Source: Fodinicola acaciae (lineage in GTDB: Bacteria > Actinomycetota > Actinomycetes > Mycobacteriales > HKI-0501). Taken from it: a stretch of 64,000 nt of DNA. The notes beneath the pieces are model-generated. The model was given only the letters and a program-made list of their open reading frames with translations. It made no database searches and had not been told where the DNA came from. This document shows, piece after piece, positions 10,505-55,620 of the stretch (positions within the stretch are counted from its first letter, which is position 1; every line of letters starts with the position of its first letter). A program made the translations under genes and the position numbers. The DNA lies in the NCBI RefSeq assembly GCF_010993745.1, contig NZ_WOTN01000002.1, positions 1,240,001 through 1,304,000 on the forward strand, given 5' to 3'.

Positions 10505-10589
10505 CGCGCGATTCTGGCGCCCACCGCCAACCATGTCAAGCCGCGACCGGTGCCTCGACAACAGTTGCCACTCCACGGCCAACGCCGTC

Positions 10590-11360
10590 GAAAACGCGCC
10601 ACTCACCAAGCGCCACCCGAAACCTGACACTCGCCGAGCGCCGCCAGAAACACGCCACTCGCCGGTCAGAGTCGCAGGAACGGCGGCGCTCGGCGACCGG
10701 CGAAGGAAACGCGCCACTCGGCGAGTGGTGCAGGAAACGCGGCACTCGGCGGGTGCCGGACGAAAGGCGGCACTCGGCGGTCAATGTCGCGGGAAGGGCG
10801 GCGTTCGGCGAGTGCCGGAGGAAACCCGGCGCCCGGCGTGCGCTGCAGGAAGGGCGGCGCTCGGCGAGTGGCGCAGCGGATACGGCGTTCGGCGAGTGTC
10901 GAAGGAAATGCGGCGCTCGGCGGTCAGCGTTGCCGAAATGGCGGCGTTCGGCGACTGGCGTAAGAACTGCGGCGTTCGGTGAGTGGCGGGGGAAGCGCGG
11001 CGCTCGGTGAGTGCTGCGGGAATGGTGGCGTTGGGTGAGTGGCGCGGGGAAGGCGGCGTTCAGTGAGTGCCGCAGCAAATGCGGCGCTCGGTGAGTGCCG
11101 GACGGAGGGCGGCGGTTGGCGGTCAACGTCGCGGGAAGGGCGGCGTTCGGTGAGTGGCGGGGGAAGCGCGGCGCTCGGTGAGTGCTGCGGGAATGGTGGC
11201 GTTGGGTGAGTGGCGCGGGGAAGGCGGCGTTCAGTGAGTGCCTCAACAAACCCGGCACTCGCCGAGCGCCGGAACAAACGCGGCGTTCGGCGAGTGCCGG
11301 ATGAAGGGCGGCGGTCGGCGGTCAACGTCTCAGGAAGGGCGGCGTTCGGTGAGTGGGCGT
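10590..11360. repeat. Degenerate 28-bp tandem repeat array (about 27 units)
   Basis: A non-coding minisatellite. The typical unit is CGGCGTTCGGYGAGTG followed by a purine-rich linker such as CCGGAGGAAACG, 28 bases in all. The best units contain the small palindrome CACTCGSCGAGTG. Five units are 31 bases long and carry GGTCARNGT; the T of that motif lies at 10666, 10781, 10924, 11123 and 11322, spacings of 115, 143, 199 and 199, each a multiple of 28 plus 3. A 102-base block (10970-11071) recurs exactly at 11141-11242. Because 28 is not a multiple of three, open frames across it are not repeat proteins. Function unknown. No gene is seen from 10474 to 11555. Confidence 0.9.
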
Positions 11361-11383
11361 CGCAAATGCGGCAATGCCGACAG

Positions 11384-11472
11384 CGACGCCAACGGCGGGC
11401 AAGGCGACGGCGACGCCAACGGCGGGCAAGGCGACGGCGGCAAGGCGACGCCAACGGCGGGCAAGGCGACGG
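11384..11472. repeat. 27-bp tandem repeat, three perfect copies
   Basis: Three identical 27-base copies (11384-11410, 11411-11437, 11446-11472) beginning CGACGCCAACGGCGGGC, with an 8-base interruption before the third and decayed copies to about 11520. Unrelated in sequence to the 28-bp array it adjoins. The period is a multiple of three, but the frame through it (11238-11561) has no ribosome site or recognisable protein. Confidence 0.85.
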
Positions 11473-11555
11473 CGACGCCAAGGGTCGGTACGGCGACGAG
11501 GCAAGGGTCGGTGCGGCGACCGGGGCCAACATCAAGGCCTGGAAACCGCGGTGTC

Positions 11556-20985: not shown

Positions 20986-21519
20986 ATGTTCAAGACCCTC
21001 GCGTCGTCGCTGCTCTGGCGCGGCATCCTCGCCATCGTCATCGGCCTGGTCTCGATCGTCTGGCCGGGGATCACCGTCGGCGCGTTCGTGATCCTGTTCG
21101 CCGTCTATTGCATCCTGCTCGCGGTCATCGACGCGGCGCGCGGTTTCGCCAGCCATCGCGCCGGCTCGGTCGCTTGGTATCTGCTGCTCGCGGTCCTGTC
21201 GCTGCTCGCCGGCGTGATCGCGATCTTCCTGCCCGGCGTCACCGCGCTCGTCCTGACGCTGTGGATCGCCGCCTGGGCGGTCATCACCGGCATCGTGCAG
21301 GTCGCGATGGCCTTCGTACGCGGAGAGACCGCCGGCGAGCGCGCGTTGTGGGCGGTGACCGGCCTGATCTCGCTGGTCTTCGGCATCGTGATCGCCGTCC
21401 ATCCGGGCAACGGAGCGGTCGCGCTGGCCACCGTCTTCGGCTTCTTCGCACTCATCTATGGCATCGGTGACGTGGTCATGTCGGTGCAGGTCCGCGGCCT
21501 CGGCAAAGAGCGTTCGTAA
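20986..21519 (+). CDS. HdeD-like (DUF308) membrane protein
   Basis: Membrane protein of 177 residues with six hydrophobic helices in three similar pairs, the DUF308/HdeD pattern: repeated LLWRGILAIVIGLVSIVWPGITV and VLSLLAGVIAIFLPGVTALVL, then ISLVFGIVIAVHPGNGAVAL. The conserved W/L-P-G turn in each pair is diagnostic. In E. coli HdeD relates to acid resistance; the role in actinomycetes is unknown. ATG follows a GGAAGG site. A REP-like hairpin begins 5 bases after the stop and may terminate its transcript. Confidence 0.88.
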   Translation: MFKTLASSLLWRGILAIVIGLVSIVWPGITVGAFVILFAVYCILLAVIDAARGFASHRAGSVAWYLLLAVLSLLAGVIAIFLPGVTALVLTLWIAAWAVITGIVQVAMAFVRGETAGERALWAVTGLISLVFGIVIAVHPGNGAVALATVFGFFALIYGIGDVVMSVQVRGLGKERS

Positions 21520-21524
21520 CCGGT

Positions 21525-21565
21525 GGGACCGCCAGGCGTGGCAGCGCCACGTCGGCGGTTTCGCC
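21525..21565 (-). repeat. REP-like hairpin, copy 1
   Basis: On the minus strand, nested arms ACCGCC...GGCGGT and CGTGGC...GCCACG enclose a 3-base loop. The 41-base element matches 39 of 41 positions of the element at 53269-53309 on the plus strand. It directly follows the HdeD-like gene and probably also works as a terminator. Confidence 0.8.
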
Positions 21566-21599
21566 GGGTTTCATGTTTGTTGCGTTGGGGGTGGTTGCT

Positions 21600-22105
21600 C
21601 CGTCCCGATTGGTGCGTTGGGCGGGTGGTGGTTTTCGCCTGCGCGGAGGGGCGACCTCAAGGAGAGGGGCGCGCGGGGTTTCGCTGTTGGTTCTGTTGGG
21701 TGCCGCGGTGCGGTTCTCGAGGTGGGTGGACCAGGAGTGTGGCTGGGGCGCCAGCGGTGCCGTGGCGTCCCGGCGGGTGGCGAGAAGGTCCAACATGTGG
21801 AACCCGAAGGCGTGTGGAGCGCTAAATGTCTGTCTTGCGAGGTTCAGTGATGATGTGAATGTCGAGTCACTTGCGCTGGACGCACGTAACGGGCCCTCAC
21901 GCCATCACGGCCGCCGGATGCTGTGGCGGGTGTGACTATTGAGGCTGGTAATGCTGTTGTGACTGCCGGCTGGCGATAAATGTCCGGTTTGATGTCTTGT
22001 TAAGGTGACTGAGCAAGCCCAGAGAACCCAGCCCCAGCACGAAACCGCCGCCCGCACCCCTATGTACACGATGGCGTCCCGCGCCCCCTCCCTGAGGTCG
22101 CGCCA
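21600..22105. repeat. Dispersed intergenic repeat, copy A
   Basis: This gene-free stretch (21520-22203) shares blocks with 31199-31730, 47150-47592 and 55460-55620. At 21726 it has the block starting GTGGACCAGGAGTGTGGC, then TGGCGAGAAGGTCCA, GAGCGCTAAATGTC, GTGAATGTCGAGT and, near 22011, GAGCAAGCCCAGAGAACCCAGC. A segment at about 21610-21680 is the reverse complement of the tail block of copies B and C. No ribosome site precedes the frames that run through it, and they are not conserved between copies. Confidence 0.82.
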
Positions 22106-22203
22106 GGCGGCGTTTGGGCTCGGCTATCGCCGCATGAATAGCCCTGTTAGTACTAGCATTCGGTTACCTCAAACAACGTTGAAAAACGACGCTCGATAGA
22201 TAG

Positions 22204-24942
22204 GTGGCCGTTGTGACCGCCGAACTGCGTATCCGGATCCTCGGGCCGTGGGACATCCAGGTGGACCACCGACAGGTGTCGATCCCGCGCGGCCAACTGC
22301 GCATTTTCCTCGCGTCCCTGCTGCTCTCGGCGCACGAGCCGGTGCCAGTGGCGACCCTCGTCGAACGCGGCTGGCCGGAGCGCGCGCCGCAGCGGGCCAG
22401 CGCGACCCTGCACACGTACGCGACCCGGCTGCGCAAGCTGCTCGGCCACGACCTGATCCAGACCGCTCGCGGCAACGGCTATCTGCTGCGCGTGCCGTCG
22501 GACGTCGTCGACCTGCATCAGTTTCGCGACCTGCTGTCGGCGGCGCACAGCGCGCCGTCGCCGGACGAGGAGCTGGACTGCCTGCACCACGCGTTGTCGC
22601 TCTGGCGTGGCAAGCCCTTCGGCGACGAGGCGTCGACCTGGCTGGACCGCGAGGTGGTGCCGCGGCTGATCGAGGAGTGGTTCACCGCGACCGAGCGGCG
22701 GATCGACCTGGAGCTGAGCCTCGGCCGGCCGGCGCAGCTGGTGCCGGAGCTGTGGGATCTCACCGAGCGTTACCCGACCCGTGAGTCGCTGTGGGTACGC
22801 CTGATCACCGCGCTGCACCAGGCCGGCCGCCGCGCGGACGCGTTGCACGCGTACCAGAAAGTACGCGCGATCCTGCACGACGAGCTCGGCATCGACCCGA
22901 GCGACGAGCTGGCGCAGCTGCAGCGCGCGGTGTTGCTGGATACGAACGGCGGCGCGTCGACCGCCTTCACCGCGAGCCGGCCGCGCCAGCTGCCGCACGA
23001 CATCCCGCACGTGGTCGGCCGCGACGCCGAGGTGGCGCTGCTGGACGCGGCGGTGGTCGACGGGCGTACGGCCATCGTCGCGATCGACGGTGCTCCTGGC
23101 ACCGGCAAGACGACGCTGGCGGTGCACTGGGCGCACCGGGTGGCCGAGCGCTATCCGGACGTACAACTGCACCTCAACCTGCGCGGATACGGTCCGGGCG
23201 AGCCGGTCGAGCCGAAGGCCGCGATCGAGACGCTGCTGCGCGCGCTCGGTGTCACGCACGAGAAGATTCCCAACGAGGTCGAGGAGCGCGCGGCGTTGCT
23301 GCGTACGACGCTGGCCGGCCGCCGCGCGCTGATCCTGCTCGACAACGCGCGCAACGCGAGCCAGGTGCGGCCGCTGCTGCCGTCCACCGACAGCCTGGTC
23401 GTCGTGACCAGCCGCAACCAGCTGCGCGGCTTGGCCGTACTCAACGGCGCACACCGCATCACGCTCGACCGGCTGGCCGACGCGCCGGCGCTGGAGGTGC
23501 TGGCCACCGCGATCGGCGCCGAGCGGGTCGAGGCGGAGCCGGCGGCGGCCGCCGAGCTGGTGGCGCTGTGTGACCGGCTGCCGCTCGCGCTGGCGATCGT
23601 CGCCGAGCGTGCGCACCGCAGCGAGCGGCTGGCCGACGTCGTACGCGCGTTGACCGACGAGGCCGCGAGGCTCGACGAGCTCGGCACCGGCGAGGACGAT
23701 CCGCAGACCGACCTGCGAGCGGCGCTGTCCTGGTCGTACCAGGCGCTGTCGCCGGCCGCCGCGTCGATGCTGCGCCACCTCGGCCGGCATCCGGCCGGCG
23801 ACATCGCGTTGGAAACGGCCGCCGCCCTGGCCGGCCTTCCGGTGCCGCGCGCGAAGGACGCGCTGGACCGGCTGCTGGCCGCGCACCTGGTCGAGCAGCG
23901 CCGGCCGGACCGTTACGAGGTGCACGACCTCATCCGTCTGTACGCCGCTGACCAGGGCGAACGGCATGAGACCGGCGCCGAGCGGGACGCCGCGATCGGC
24001 CGCGTACTCGACTGGTATCTGCACGCCGCGGTGAGCGCCGACAAGTGCTATCGGCCGCTGCGCCGCCGCGACTTCGTCCACCCGTACGAGCCGCAGACGC
24101 CGCCGCCGCGCTTCGACGGCCTGCCGGAGGCCGCTGCCTGGCTGGAGACCGAGTACGACAACCTGCGTACGGTCATCACCTGGGCCGCGACGCACGGCTG
24201 GGTCGGCCACGCGTGGCGCACCGCGGTCGCCATGGCCAGCTATTTCGAGTCGCGGCTGCCGTGGCGCGACGCGACCGACGCGCTGCGGACGGCGTACGAA
24301 GGTGCGTCGGCGGCGGGGGACGTGATCGGCCAGGCGTACACGCTGAACTCGATCGGCTGTACGCACCTCGACATGCACGACATCGTGGTCGCGAAGTCAC
24401 ATTTCGAGCGCGCGTTGGCTCGTTTCGTGGCTGAAGGCGACCTCGGCGGCGAGGCGATGGTGCGCGGCAACCTCGCGCTCGCGCTCGCCGAGAAGGGTGA
24501 CCGCGAGCAGGCACTGGCACACTGCAGGCGCGCGTTGGAACTGTGCGAACAGCGCGGCTATCGGCGTGGTGTCGGCATGAACCTCGACAACCTCGGCATC
24601 GCGTACTCGCTGACCGGCGACCACGACCGAGCGATCGAATGCCTGATGCGCGCCAGACAGATGTTCCGGGAGCTCAACGACCGTGTGGAGCTGGCGTGGG
24701 TCGCGCAGCACATGGGTCAGGCGTATGCGCGCGTTGGCGAGCGGCGCGCCGCGGTCGCCGCGTTCTGCGAGGCGATCCGCGGCTTCCGGCAGGACGGCAA
24801 CCGGCGGTTCGAGGTGTTGACGCTGGTCGAGCTCGGCCGGCTGCTGGAGCACTGCGGCCACGAGAAGATGGGCCGCGGGATCCTCGACGCGATGGCCACG
24901 TACGCCGATCTCACCGCCGACCGCGACCTACTCGCCAGCTAG
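22204..24942 (+). CDS. AfsR/SARP-type regulator with NB-ARC and TPR domains
   Basis: Large regulator of 912 residues. An OmpR-like winged helix (about 5-95, RIRILGPWDIQVDHRQVSIPRGQLRIFLASLLL, then TYATRLRKLLG) is followed by a bacterial transcriptional activation domain (about 100-245). Next comes an NB-ARC ATPase with Walker A DGAPGTGKTTLA near residue 295 and LILLDNARNASQVRPLLPS. A C-terminal TPR region begins near 700 (HLDMHDIVVAKSHFERAL, then ALAHCRRALELCEQRGY). Family members activate secondary metabolism or development. No biosynthetic cluster adjoins it here. Start GTG 22204 or 22213. It overlaps the convergent polymerase gene by 15 bases. Confidence 0.93.
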   Translation: MAVVTAELRIRILGPWDIQVDHRQVSIPRGQLRIFLASLLLSAHEPVPVATLVERGWPERAPQRASATLHTYATRLRKLLGHDLIQTARGNGYLLRVPSDVVDLHQFRDLLSAAHSAPSPDEELDCLHHALSLWRGKPFGDEASTWLDREVVPRLIEEWFTATERRIDLELSLGRPAQLVPELWDLTERYPTRESLWVRLITALHQAGRRADALHAYQKVRAILHDELGIDPSDELAQLQRAVLLDTNGGASTAFTASRPRQLPHDIPHVVGRDAEVALLDAAVVDGRTAIVAIDGAPGTGKTTLAVHWAHRVAERYPDVQLHLNLRGYGPGEPVEPKAAIETLLRALGVTHEKIPNEVEERAALLRTTLAGRRALILLDNARNASQVRPLLPSTDSLVVVTSRNQLRGLAVLNGAHRITLDRLADAPALEVLATAIGAERVEAEPAAAAELVALCDRLPLALAIVAERAHRSERLADVVRALTDEAARLDELGTGEDDPQTDLRAALSWSYQALSPAAASMLRHLGRHPAGDIALETAAALAGLPVPRAKDALDRLLAAHLVEQRRPDRYEVHDLIRLYAADQGERHETGAERDAAIGRVLDWYLHAAVSADKCYRPLRRRDFVHPYEPQTPPPRFDGLPEAAAWLETEYDNLRTVITWAATHGWVGHAWRTAVAMASYFESRLPWRDATDALRTAYEGASAAGDVIGQAYTLNSIGCTHLDMHDIVVAKSHFERALARFVAEGDLGGEAMVRGNLALALAEKGDREQALAHCRRALELCEQRGYRRGVGMNLDNLGIAYSLTGDHDRAIECLMRARQMFRELNDRVELAWVAQHMGQAYARVGERRAAVAAFCEAIRGFRQDGNRRFEVLTLVELGRLLEHCGHEKMGRGILDAMATYADLTADRDLLAS

Positions 24943-31198: not shown

Positions 31199-31730
31199 TG
31201 TGGACCAGGAGTGTGGCTGGGGCGCCGGAGGTGCCGTGGCGTCCCGCTCTGTGGCGAGAAGGTCCATTATGTGGGACGCGAAGGCACATGGAGCGCTAAA
31301 TGTCCGGCTTGAGAGGTTCGTAGATGGCATGAATGTCGAGTTACTTGCGGTGGACGCAAGAAACAAGGCTTTCACGCCGCCGCGATCATCAGAGGCTGTG
31401 ACCGGTGTGACTGCTGAGGCTGACAATGCTGGTGTGACTGCTGGGCTGTACCAAATGTTCGTTTTGATGTCTTGCTTAACAAGTATTACGCAGCCGAGCC
31501 GCCTCACCTGCATTGCCAGCCACAGTAGCCACATCAGCACCCCGGACGCTGTGATGGCGTCCAGACCGACGGGTTGCTTCCCATACGTGACCGAGCAAGC
31601 CCAGAAAACCCAGCCCCGCCCACAACCGCCGCCCGCATCCCCCATGCACACCGATTGGCATCCACGCGGCCCCTCCCTTGAGGTCGCCCTCCGCGCAGGA
31701 GCGCCCGCCGCGCAGGCGAAAAACCCACCG
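31199..31730. repeat. Dispersed intergenic repeat, copy B
   Basis: The most complete copy, inside the 1-kb gene-free gap 30929-31948. It has all blocks: GTGGACCAGGAGTGTGGC, TGGCGAGAAGGTCCA, GAGCGCTAAATGTCC, AATGTCGAGTTACTTGCG, GACGCAAGAAACAAGG, TTTTGATGTCTTG, AACAAGTATTACGCAG and a tail beginning GAGCAAGCCCAGAAAACCC and ending GCGCAGGCGAAAAAC. The inverse of GCGCTAAATGTTCG also occurs at 31068-31080. Frames crossing it on the minus strand (31157-31831) are judged spurious. Confidence 0.88.
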
Positions 31731-31948
31731 CCCACCCAACGCAACAACCAAGAGACGCAACCACCTCCCAAACGCAACAAGCGGAAAACGTAACCACTTC
31801 CCCCATGCAACAAGCAGAAAGCCCCAATCACCTCACCACCGCACCAACCGGAAACCCAATCACCTCATCAATTCACTAACCCACTCTCAGTCACAACATT
31901 GGAGCCACGGCACCCCGCGTATCCACGCAAGGTGCCGCACCCACACTC

Positions 31949-47102: not shown

Positions 47103-47149
47103 TTTTTGGACGATTTCGTCGCTTGCCGCGACGGCGCCTTGGCCGATGA

Positions 47150-47592
47150 CGTCCCGGTAAGTGGCGAGAAGGTCCGCCATATGGGAATCCATAGCACCTG
47201 TAACGCTAAATGTCCGGCTGGGAGGTCGCAAATGGTGTGAATGTCGAGTTACTTGCGCTGGACGCAAGAAACAAGGCTTTCACGCCGCCACGATCACTGG
47301 AGGCTGTGACGGGTGTGACTACTGAGGCCGACAACGCAGTTGTGACTGCTGTGCTGCAGCAAATGTCCGTTTTGATGTCTTGTTAAACAAGTATTACGCA
47401 GTCAGCCGCTACAGCACGATCGTTTGGCGTCCATCCCGACAGGTTGCTTCCAAAACATGACCGAGCAAGCCCGGAAAACCCAGCCCCGCACGCAACCCCC
47501 GCCCGCACCTCCATGCACACCGATTGGCATCCACGCGCCCCCTCCCTTGAGGTCGCCCTCCGCGCAGGAGCGCCCGCCGCGCAGGCGAAAAA
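47150..47592. repeat. Dispersed intergenic repeat, copy C
   Basis: Occupies most of the gene-free gap 47103-47712. It carries TGGCGAGAAGGTCCG, AACGCTAAATGTCCGG, AATGTCGAGTTACTTGCG, GACGCAAGAAACAAGG, AACAAGTATTACGCAG and a tail that is nearly identical to copy B (GAGCAAGCCC to GCGCAGGCGAAAAAC). The first GTGGACCAGG block is missing. Confidence 0.87.
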
Positions 47593-47670
47593 CCAACCAC
47601 CCCCTGACGCAACAATCAAGAGACGCAATCAACAGAAACCCAACCACCTCACCAAAAAGCGGACCACACA

Positions 47671-53235: not shown

Positions 53236-53309
53236 GCAGGCTCTCACGCCTGCGTGACTGCTGGGCATGGCGAAACCGCCCACGTGGCGCTGCCACGCCG
53301 GGCGGTCCC
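53236..53309 (+). repeat. Partial dispersed repeat with REP-like hairpin, copy 2
   Basis: GGCTCTCACGCCTGCGTGACTGCTGG matches the end of copy D at 55540-55566, and 53269-53309 is the 41-base hairpin element also found inverted at 21525-21565 (39 of 41 identical). Lies 68 bases past the amidase stop. No gene is seen in 53089-53376. Confidence 0.75.
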
Positions 53310-53376
53310 GGCGCACCGCCAGATGACGTTTGGTCTCGACTCTCATCCACGTGGGAGTTCGAAACAGACCCAGCGG

Positions 53377-55011
53377 TCAGGCGGACTGCGCGGCGACTTG
53401 TTCCGGCGTCAGCCGTCGTACGGTGCCGCGGTCGGTCGGCTTCGCGCCGGCGGCCTTGGCGACCCGGCGGTGCAGGTCGCCGGAAGCGGCGGCCGCCGGT
53501 GGATCGGCCGGCCGTTGCGTGTGCCAGTCGGTGAGCGACTGATAGGCCGCCGCGATCTCCAGCAGCCGGTCCTCCTCGTATGGCCGGCCGCCGACGATCG
53601 TGCCGACCGGCACCTTCGGATGCGCGCCGACGGCGTGGAAACCGATCGGCAGGCCAAGCTCGGGCAGCCCGACCGCGTCGAACGGATTGGGACTGGTCTG
53701 CAGGACGACGTCGCAGTGCGCCATCACGCCGTCGAGGATCTCGCGCAGCAGCCGGTTTTTCGCGCGCTGGCCGGTGATCCACTCGTCGCCGGACAGCAAC
53801 AACCCCTGCAGCCAGGAAATCGAGGAGACACCGAGCAGCGTCGGATCCTGTTGCAGGAAGGGCAACATCTGCTCGGCGCGCTCACTGAGGCGTACGTTGT
53901 TGAACACGCCGGTCAGCAGGCTCCAGTCGTCCGGATAGCCGACATCGACCAGCCGCGCGCCGGGAATCGCCGCCATGGTGGTCAGAAATGCTTTGCGCAG
54001 AGCCAGAATGTCGGCCGGCGTGGAGCTGGCCAGATAGTCCGGCGGCACGCCGATGCGCGTCGGACGGCGCATGACGACGCGGTTTGTCCCGTCGCGGCGG
54101 GGAAGTGCGGCGCCGATCAGGTCGGCGACCGGCGGCAGTCCGAGCGTACGCACGTCGTTGCGGTCAGGCCCGGCCATGATCGACAGCATGATCGCGGCGT
54201 CGAGCGCGTCGCGCGCGAGCGGACCGGAATGGTCGCGCGTGTACGAAAGTGGGATGACGCCATAGATCGACGTACGACCCATCGTCGGCTTGAGACCGGT
54301 GAGATTTTGTGCCATCGAAGGGTTCACGATGCTGCCGCCGGTCTGCGTACCGATGGACGAGGTCGCCATCCGGCCGGCCACCGCGCAGCCGGGACCGGTC
54401 GACGAGCCGCCCGGATCGACCGTCACATCGGTCGGTGTCCACGCGTTCACCGTCGTGATCGTGCCGTTTGGCGTCGTCGCGCGGGTCGTCGCCAGCGGAC
54501 CCATCTGGCCTTTGCCGAGCACGATGCCGCCGGCGGCGGTGAGCCTCGCGACCGAGGTCGCGTCGTACGGCGGGACGAAGCTGGCGAAAACAAACGAGTT
54601 GGCCGTCGTGGTCACACCGGCCGTGTAGTAGTTGTCCTTGATGCACAACGGGATGCCGCCGAGCGGTCCGGTGCGCCGCTGGTCCTGCCGGCGCGCCGCC
54701 TCCAGCGCGGCCTCGCTCGGGATCGCGTTGTAAGCCTGATAAGTCGGCTCATACCGGGAAATCCGCTCGAGGTAGGCCTCGGTGAGCCCGGTGGCGGTGA
54801 GTTTTCCTCGGCGCATCAACGTGACCGCCTCGGCGATGGTGACCTCGGTCGGGTCCGCGGCCGCCTCCGTACGCACCGGCACGTCCGGGATCGTCCGCCG
54901 CCGCGGCGCCGCTTCGGCTGCGACATCGACGAAACTCGCCGCCGCGACGCCGGCCGTGACCGCGGCCGTACGCGCCAGGAAGACGCGCCGGTTGACCTCG
55001 CGCTGGCTCAT
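53377..55011 (-). CDS. Tat-exported amidase (amidase signature family)
   Basis: Hydrolase of 544 residues. Twin-arginine signal NRRVFLARTAAVTAGVAAAS is followed by the amidase signature domain: the catalytic Lys in IPLCIKDNYYTAG, cis-Ser and nucleophile Ser in DPGGSSTGPGCAVAGRMATSSIGTQTGGSIVNPS. The usual GSSSGS reads GSSTGP here, but both active serines remain. It hydrolyses an amide or peptide-like bond outside the membrane. ATG 55011 overlaps the upstream small gene by ATGA. Resembles AtzF- and GatA-like enzymes only in core fold; the substrate is unknown. Confidence 0.88.
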   Translation of the reverse strand: MSQREVNRRVFLARTAAVTAGVAAASFVDVAAEAAPRRRTIPDVPVRTEAAADPTEVTIAEAVTLMRRGKLTATGLTEAYLERISRYEPTYQAYNAIPSEAALEAARRQDQRRTGPLGGIPLCIKDNYYTAGVTTTANSFVFASFVPPYDATSVARLTAAGGIVLGKGQMGPLATTRATTPNGTITTVNAWTPTDVTVDPGGSSTGPGCAVAGRMATSSIGTQTGGSIVNPSMAQNLTGLKPTMGRTSIYGVIPLSYTRDHSGPLARDALDAAIMLSIMAGPDRNDVRTLGLPPVADLIGAALPRRDGTNRVVMRRPTRIGVPPDYLASSTPADILALRKAFLTTMAAIPGARLVDVGYPDDWSLLTGVFNNVRLSERAEQMLPFLQQDPTLLGVSSISWLQGLLLSGDEWITGQRAKNRLLREILDGVMAHCDVVLQTSPNPFDAVGLPELGLPIGFHAVGAHPKVPVGTIVGGRPYEEDRLLEIAAAYQSLTDWHTQRPADPPAAAASGDLHRRVAKAAGAKPTDRGTVRRLTPEQVAAQSA

Positions 55012-55289
55012 GCCGTCCACGCCTCACTGATCGACGGATACTCCAGCGGTGGCGCCAGCATCTGGCTGAGCATCGGATCCGGCGCCGGTGGCCGCCACCG
55101 GTTGATCGCCGCGGGGTTGGACAGGATGAACGACCGCAGCGCGGCGAGCACCTGTTCCTGTGTCGGCGCACCGGAAACCGGGTCCGGCGCGGTGGGGAAC
55201 GACGCGAGGTCGATCCCGGAGATGACCAGTTTGGCCGTGATGTAGGCATTGAGCTGGTCGGTGCTCAGGTCGGCTGGACCAACTGTCAC
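55008..55289 (-). CDS. Small hypothetical protein coupled to Tat amidase
   Basis: Protein of 93 residues, no signal peptide, not recognised. It is Pro- and Ala-rich in its second half (NRWRPPAPDPMLSQMLAPPLEYP) with an N-terminal helical part (DLSTDQLNAYITAKLVISGIDLASF). GTG 55289 has a strong GAGGAG site. Its stop overlaps the amidase ATG, so the two are made in step. It lacks cysteines. It could be a partner carried through Tat with the amidase, or a chaperone for it; both are inference. Confidence 0.6.
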   Translation of the reverse strand: MTVGPADLSTDQLNAYITAKLVISGIDLASFPTAPDPVSGAPTQEQVLAALRSFILSNPAAINRWRPPAPDPMLSQMLAPPLEYPSISEAWTA

Positions 55290-55459: not shown

Positions 55460-55620
55460 GCGTGTAACGCTAAATGCCTGCCTTGTCAGGCTTAGCGGAG
55501 GCGTGAATGTCGAGTTACTGGCGCTAGATACACGAAACGAGGCCTTCACGCCTGCGTGACCGCCGGCCCCTGTGGTAGGTGTGACTGCCGAGGCCAGTAA
55601 TGCCGTTGTGACCGCTCGCC
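55460..55620. repeat. Dispersed intergenic repeat, copy D
   Basis: Shorter and more diverged copy in the 386-base gap 55290-55675. It keeps GTAACGCTAAATG, GTGAATGTCGAGTTACT, GAGGCCTTCACGCC, GGTGTGACTGC and GTTGTGACCGC in the same order as the other copies, but lacks the tail block. Confidence 0.8.

Follow-up and report, generated by a model that had tools for sequence, protein, structure and literature searches.

The window, a stretch of 64,000 nucleotides (C2:1240001–1304000 of a genome of 8,860,993 bases in 4 contigs), contains two copies of a 41-bp hairpin, and the question is what kind of element they represent. The original prediction placed the copies at 21525–21565 and 53269–53309, in opposite orientations, each just past the 3′ end of a gene and beside a dispersed repeat, and proposed a REP or MITE-type unit or a mobile terminator. 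The two copies were indeed identical at 39/41 positions (41-nt arms, 95% complementary), and both nested stems were present. Each copy was located downstream of a gene stop (TAA at 21519 and TGA at 53377), the first starting 5 bases past the TAA of gene 20986–21519(+) and the hairpin of the second sitting 67 bases beyond the TGA of gene 53377–55020(−). The plus-strand fold of 21520–21570 reached −42.7 kcal/mol (shuffle mean −22.4, z −7.5, equaled by 0 of 200 shuffles). The other three strand and copy combinations folded less stably, the weakest being the plus strand of 53264–53314 (z −1.57, matched by 21 of 200 shuffles). A comparison with Rfam returned nothing at E ≤ 0.1 for 21000–22300. From the evidence below, the hairpin is very probably the central stem-loop (H1) of a non-autonomous MITE family of the IS5 type, whose matching IS5 would since have decayed in this genome.

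The search of the own genome with a 71-bp query yielded at least 20 copies of the core at E ≤ 1.9e-6 (40 of 131 candidates scored; next E 0.006), including the 53269 copy at E 7.4e-12, so the hairpin is not limited to two copies. Seventeen of the 20 cores occupy the center of palindromic two-ended units, which measure 161–176 bp for the full MITE; one of these units (C1:2257813) has a clipped left end. The remaining three cores, namely both window copies and locus L006, are truncated or interrupted. From 160 bases on each side of the 20 copies, the typical 176-bp palindrome reads GGGTCTGTTTCGAAGTCCCACG-TGGATGAGAG...core...GGCTATCGCC-GCGTGGGACTTCGAAACAGACCC, bordered by CTA on the left and TAG on the right. 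When the whole unit served as the query, at least 66 pieces of the genome matched it at E ≤ 0.001, with 40 of the 175 candidates scored. The end of this unit, type A, had 65 matches in the genome with up to 3 mismatches, and a second end, type B (GGCCTGTCTCCATATTCCG), had 42, while neither control (reversed for type A) gave any.

We extracted 45 two-ended elements of 60–176 bp, all too short for a transposase gene; this set leaves out three further type-B pairs and all single-ended pieces. The two ends were of matched type in 43 elements (27 A/A, 15 B/B, and 1 C/C), and the two mixed cases were C1:2441113 (B on the left, A on the right) and C2:1358756, a weaker call. H1 formed the center of 17 elements and a second core, H2, that of six, and 22 had neither; the shorter elements have the appearance of internally deleted forms with both ends retained. 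With the ends of types A, B, and C as drawn, TA directly adjoined both sides in 28 of the 45 elements, and the other 17 had an offset or degraded TA on one or both sides. The family thus shows the features of MITEs: short length, terminal inverted repeats, TA target duplication, and many dispersed copies. Two further loci (L064, C3:1627444, and L080, C2:1306460) are palindromes of ~22–35 bp made of two type-A end pieces beside TA and represent minimal derivatives.

Among 60 relatives, the MITE body was present in one genome of the same genus (G001) and absent from the other 59. G001 carries the same body and H1 core but a fourth end, type D (CTAGTACTACAGGGCTACTCATG), which had 16 matches there and one weak match (3 mismatches) in the own genome. 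The body had no match in plasmids and phages, and the type-A end with TA (≤1 mismatch) was found in the own genome only among 396 genomes of the phylum, a set that does not include G001. No paper on this MITE family was seen in the open-access literature that was searched. Judged from these searches, the family is so far known from this genus only, probably Fodinicola. What was at first an isolated hairpin can thereby be described as a family of MITEs, in an actinobacterial genus that has received little study.

When placed against the family, the window copies comprise the following features:

21517..21519, plus strand: TAA stop codon of gene 20986–21519, immediately ahead of copy 1
21525..21566, plus strand: H1 core hairpin of a MITE with a surviving type-D end, left arm gone (genome search, fold, and alignment)
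21567..22100, no strand: dispersed-repeat block separating core and right arm in the copy-1 MITE (limits from alignment)
22101..22156, plus strand: right arm of the copy-1 MITE, with its type-D end (…GCCCTGTTAGTACTAG; alignment, last bases by eye)
53264..53309, minus strand: H1 core of copy 2, arm beyond the core gone (genome search and alignment)
53310..53371, minus strand: left arm of copy 2 with its type-A end at 53350–53371 (end and unit searches, alignment)
53377..53379, minus strand: TGA stop codon of gene 53377–55020, the type-A end of copy 2 being 5 bases away

Both copies are therefore damaged relics, and the copy at 53264–53371 is half of a type-A element. In copy 1, ~534 bp of the dispersed family separates the H1 core from the type-D right arm, of which 22101–22147 aligns with the type-D elements of the sister genome G001. 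The proposed link to the dispersed repeat accordingly stands for copy 1, where the block is inside the element; for copy 2, no adjoining block was seen among the 20 largest repeat families, the nearest listed block being at 55463–55616. At L006 (C1:2457578), a block of the same dispersed family follows the H1 core at the same position as in copy 1. At these two loci, the link arose either by insertion of the block into the MITE or by recombination between them. The junction, GGTTTCG(C/T)C of the core followed by GGGTTTCATG of the dispersed family, is identical at window 21566/21567 and at L006, which are MITEs of different end type; a target preference, microhomology, or a shared ancestor may account for this. 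When the dispersed block was used as a query, its matches in G001 were confined to the MITE arm.

The REP part of the original prediction was not supported, whereas its MITE part held, through the terminal inverted repeats and the TA target. According to PMC3733652, in the part available, REP membership is defined by a stand-alone palindrome of 20–40 bp, and the REP or GTAG and CGTC repeats described there share with the present hairpin a small palindrome and an extragenic location at gene 3′ ends. A stand-alone REP-type hairpin, moved by a REP-associated tyrosine transposase (RAYT) and combined with other repeats by accident, would explain the size and shape of the 41-bp hairpin, its position at gene 3′ ends, and the unequal folding of its strands. 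Unlike REPs as that source presents them, however, the hairpin belongs to a larger element bounded by terminal inverted repeats, and not one of the 20 cores occurs on its own. Inspection of the hairpin foot by eye revealed neither GTAG nor CGTC as an unpaired tag, CGTC occurring only within the paired arm. Moreover, the 22 coreless elements have the same ends, and therefore the ends, not the hairpin, define the mobile unit. We consider a REP origin highly improbable.

The MITE reading calls for a transposase that recognizes the ends. The pattern TAGGGYCTGTTTCGAAGTCC (exact type-A end plus TA) was found at 8 loci of 5 species in other actinobacterial genome contigs: Streptomyces sp. WMMB 322 (four loci), Streptosporangium violaceochromogenes, Actinomadura rupiterrae, Sphaerisporangium album, and Actinomadura barringtoniae. 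For S. album and A. barringtoniae, a matching partner end, inverted and followed by TAG, lies ~1.0 kb away, and the two ends enclose an IS5 transposase; the A. barringtoniae protein matched NF033580 (IS5, E 5e-73), PF13340, and PF01609. These IS5 elements (NF033580; DUF4096 and DDE_Tnp_1) have the exact end TAGGGCCTGTTTCGAAGTCC and the TA/CTAG flanks in common with the MITE, and differ from it in their length of ~1.0 kb, their transposase gene, and an interior without visible similarity to the MITE body. In A. rupiterrae, an ORF resembling an IS5 transposase by eye adjoins the end. No good partner end was found at loci L183 and L185, and L182 is at the edge of its stretch. Two of the WMMB 322 loci (L180 and L181) are MITE-like, with type-A-like ends and no room for a transposase; they are also miniature because their two ends are only 228 and 80 bp apart.

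With the A. barringtoniae transposase as a query, 17 matches were obtained in the own genome. A broken IS5 gene (C2:2060148–2060683) has a downstream, A-like end, GACTTGAAACAGGCCC-TA. At C2:795006–795140, a 45-aa tail 76% identical to the A. barringtoniae protein is followed by CGACTTTGAAACAGACCC-TAG, an end matching type A in 16 of its outer 17 bases (two differences over 18). Four better-preserved IS5 copies end in GGGCGTGTTTCCAAACCC, which is related to, but different from, type A. The own genome yielded no intact IS bounded by ends of type A or type B. The end shared with an autonomous IS is thus type A, exact elsewhere and nearly matched in the own remnants, and no source was identified for types B, C, and D. 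The single type-A ends L061 and L062 had no transposase adjoining the end; the other single type-A ends were examined for a partner end within their stretch only.

Other transposase genes were also considered. DDE_Tnp_4 (PF13359) had no match in the own genome. IS630-type DDE_3 genes (three in the own genome and five in G001) were rejected as the source, as a scan of those loci revealed no TA-flanked inverted ends. At L169 (C2:215885–218971), TA-flanked inverted ends (GGGCGTGTCTCCAAAAGA and GGGCGTGTCTCTAAATTC) lie 768 bp apart around IS5 transposase fragments, and 12 of their first 13 bases agree with end type B. Near-identical IS5 copies of the own genome (L155, L157, and L159) differ in the number of a 12-bp unit (CAGGGGGCTCTA, reverse TGTAGAGCCCCC) inside the transposase gene.

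The location at gene 3′ ends was analyzed with genes called by a codon model trained on the window and with the empty sites of all 45 elements reconstructed by a script. The target TA was that of a stop codon in 17 of the 45 cases, a further nine lay within 10 bp of a stop, 17 were intergenic, and two were in genes. A 3′-end bias is therefore present, with 26 of the 45 insertions at or within 10 bp of a stop codon. For comparison, the 890 TA sites of the window comprised 697 inside genes, 171 intergenic, and 22 on stops, and its 22 CTAG sites comprised 13 intergenic, seven on stops, and two inside genes. The stop excess over CTAG was not significant (26/45 vs. 7/22, p 0.07; 17/45 vs. 7/22, p 0.79). 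The bias is thus largely explained by the choice of CTAG-type targets together with the loss of harmful insertions. Four of the 45 MITEs (C1:900283, C2:555383, C2:1305757, and C3:1517116) and a single end (C2:1111173) share one adjoining sequence, TA(G/A)CCTCGATCTTT, apparently a further repeat serving as a landing site.

The counts at stops and the very stable folds could also be taken to mean that the element was retained by the host as a 3′-end structure, either a mobile transcription terminator, as originally suggested, or an mRNA stabilizer. The strands fold unequally, yet orientation to the stop-adjacent gene was random (nine sense, 11 antisense, and six having a stop on either side). 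In none of the 20 copies was the core followed by four consecutive T; an intrinsic terminator was therefore rejected, as the GC hairpin has no T run and the sense orientation is not preferred. The location, moreover, is near that of the CTAG sites, and the changes specific to single copies, given below, favor pairing on neither strand. Retention for a host function is improbable on these grounds.

In the proposed history of the MITE, an IS5 transposase acting in trans would have bound the element at its ends and integrated it at TA, with a preference for CTAG. An insertion into TAG or TAA would leave TA/G, again a stop codon, because the element starts with G, and such a copy would be harmless and persist. 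The partner IS5 would then have decayed in this genome, which is the simplest reading, and the window copies would have been left as broken relics, one with a dispersed-repeat block inside. A collection of such elements at stop codons can be explained in this way without invoking function.

The pairing of the palindrome differs between its two strands. The strand that carries GATGAGAG on the 5′ side forms a more stable RNA fold than its complement in every one of the 45 elements, although the 45 elements are not 45 independent events because the copies are related. For a strand-neutral test, each of 53 elements (the 45 and eight of type D) was aligned with its own reverse complement. An A.C pair on one strand is a G.U pair on the other, so equal numbers are expected if there is no strand effect; these counts were relied on because structure-based pair counts favor the folded strand by construction. 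The imperfect pairs comprised 354 G.U, 63 A.C, and 216 others, and G.U exceeded A.C in 50 of the 53 elements, was lower in two, and tied in one. In the consensus sequences, G.U to A.C was 13:0 for type D (p 0.0002), 11:1 for H1 (p 0.006), 8:2 for H2 (p 0.11), and 5:2 for the coreless elements (p 0.45), four tests that are not independent, as many positions are common to several sets. By our reading, the lone A.C pair of the H1 consensus falls where the long arm has no true counterpart. Copy-specific departures from a Watson–Crick majority were 5:2, 12:14, 3:2, and 15:9 (35:27 in total), and none of the four was significant. The fixed bias and the unbiased later changes together indicate an old bias that was already a property of the source elements.

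Selection for folding as a single strand, in the simplest case a transcript, could account for the bias, as could C to T change affecting just one strand of the source. As a mutational effect, it would have arisen through C to T changes that the forward strand of the source accumulated while exposed in single-stranded form (e.g., as non-template strand). A forward-strand change of C to T (or of A to G) can produce each forward G.U, and the absence of bias in the copy-specific changes fits as well; however, compensated pairs are not expected from C to T on one strand alone, and such states were observed at D pairs 40–116 and 42–114 (C-G, T.G, and T-A) and at H1 pair 68–103 (G.T, A-T, and G-C). 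We regard the mutational origin as a real, if tentative, possibility. As for selection, it is conceivable, although doubtful, that selection made source copies fold in single-stranded form with one polarity, in the simplest case as transcribed RNA, that resident copies drift, and that body and center were retained while the two ends were swapped jointly (types A, B, C, and D), so that the structured unit could change transposase. If so, the spread of the MITE would have relied on a folded RNA or single-stranded DNA intermediate besides its ends. Setting the fixed bias of the source lineage against the unbiased change of resident copies offers a means of telling selection on the mobile lineage apart from benefit to the host. 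The MITE-like L180 and L181 of Streptomyces have a different body and no one-strand bias (5 vs. 7 and 2 vs. 1 G.U pairs).

The element is a new IS5-type MITE family whose spread is ordinary; what is unusual is that matched ends were swapped around a conserved body and that an old one-strand pairing bias is present. Correia/NEMIS, RUP, and ERIC elements, as the available part of PMC2229807 describes them, resemble it in their length below 200 bp, terminal TA, inverted ends, target duplication, and transcripts with long stems, and the comparison of this plan also draws on portions of the review PMC10969869. They are unrelated to it in sequence as far as seen, and they differ from it in that the present family has several interchangeable end types on one body. 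The partner type is also different, IS5 here and IS630-Spn1 for RUP (PMC2229807, same part). RNase III cuts at Correia elements, and ERIC insertions at gene 3′ ends have effects, according to the accessible text of PMC2229807 and PMC10969869; therefore, folded MITE RNAs can act in those systems, while the present case is read from sequence. The TIMEs of PMC4133298, as far as that source was available, are miniature inverted-repeat elements that make mosaics, as here, and are Tn3-derived by its title, hence of another transposase family than IS5.

The dispersed family found in copy 1 occurs in the window at 21567–22100, 31200–31763, 47147–47656, and 55463–55616, and in at least 40 places in the own genome (40 of 311 candidates scored, a search that missed window copies known from the repeat listing). 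Several of its copies are edged by tandem units of ~33 bp, such as AACGCAACAAACAGAAAACCC... At 10548–11500, a tandem-like array spaced at 28 bp is also present (its units including CAGGAAGGGCGGCGCTCGGCGAGTGG), followed by a 27-bp array.
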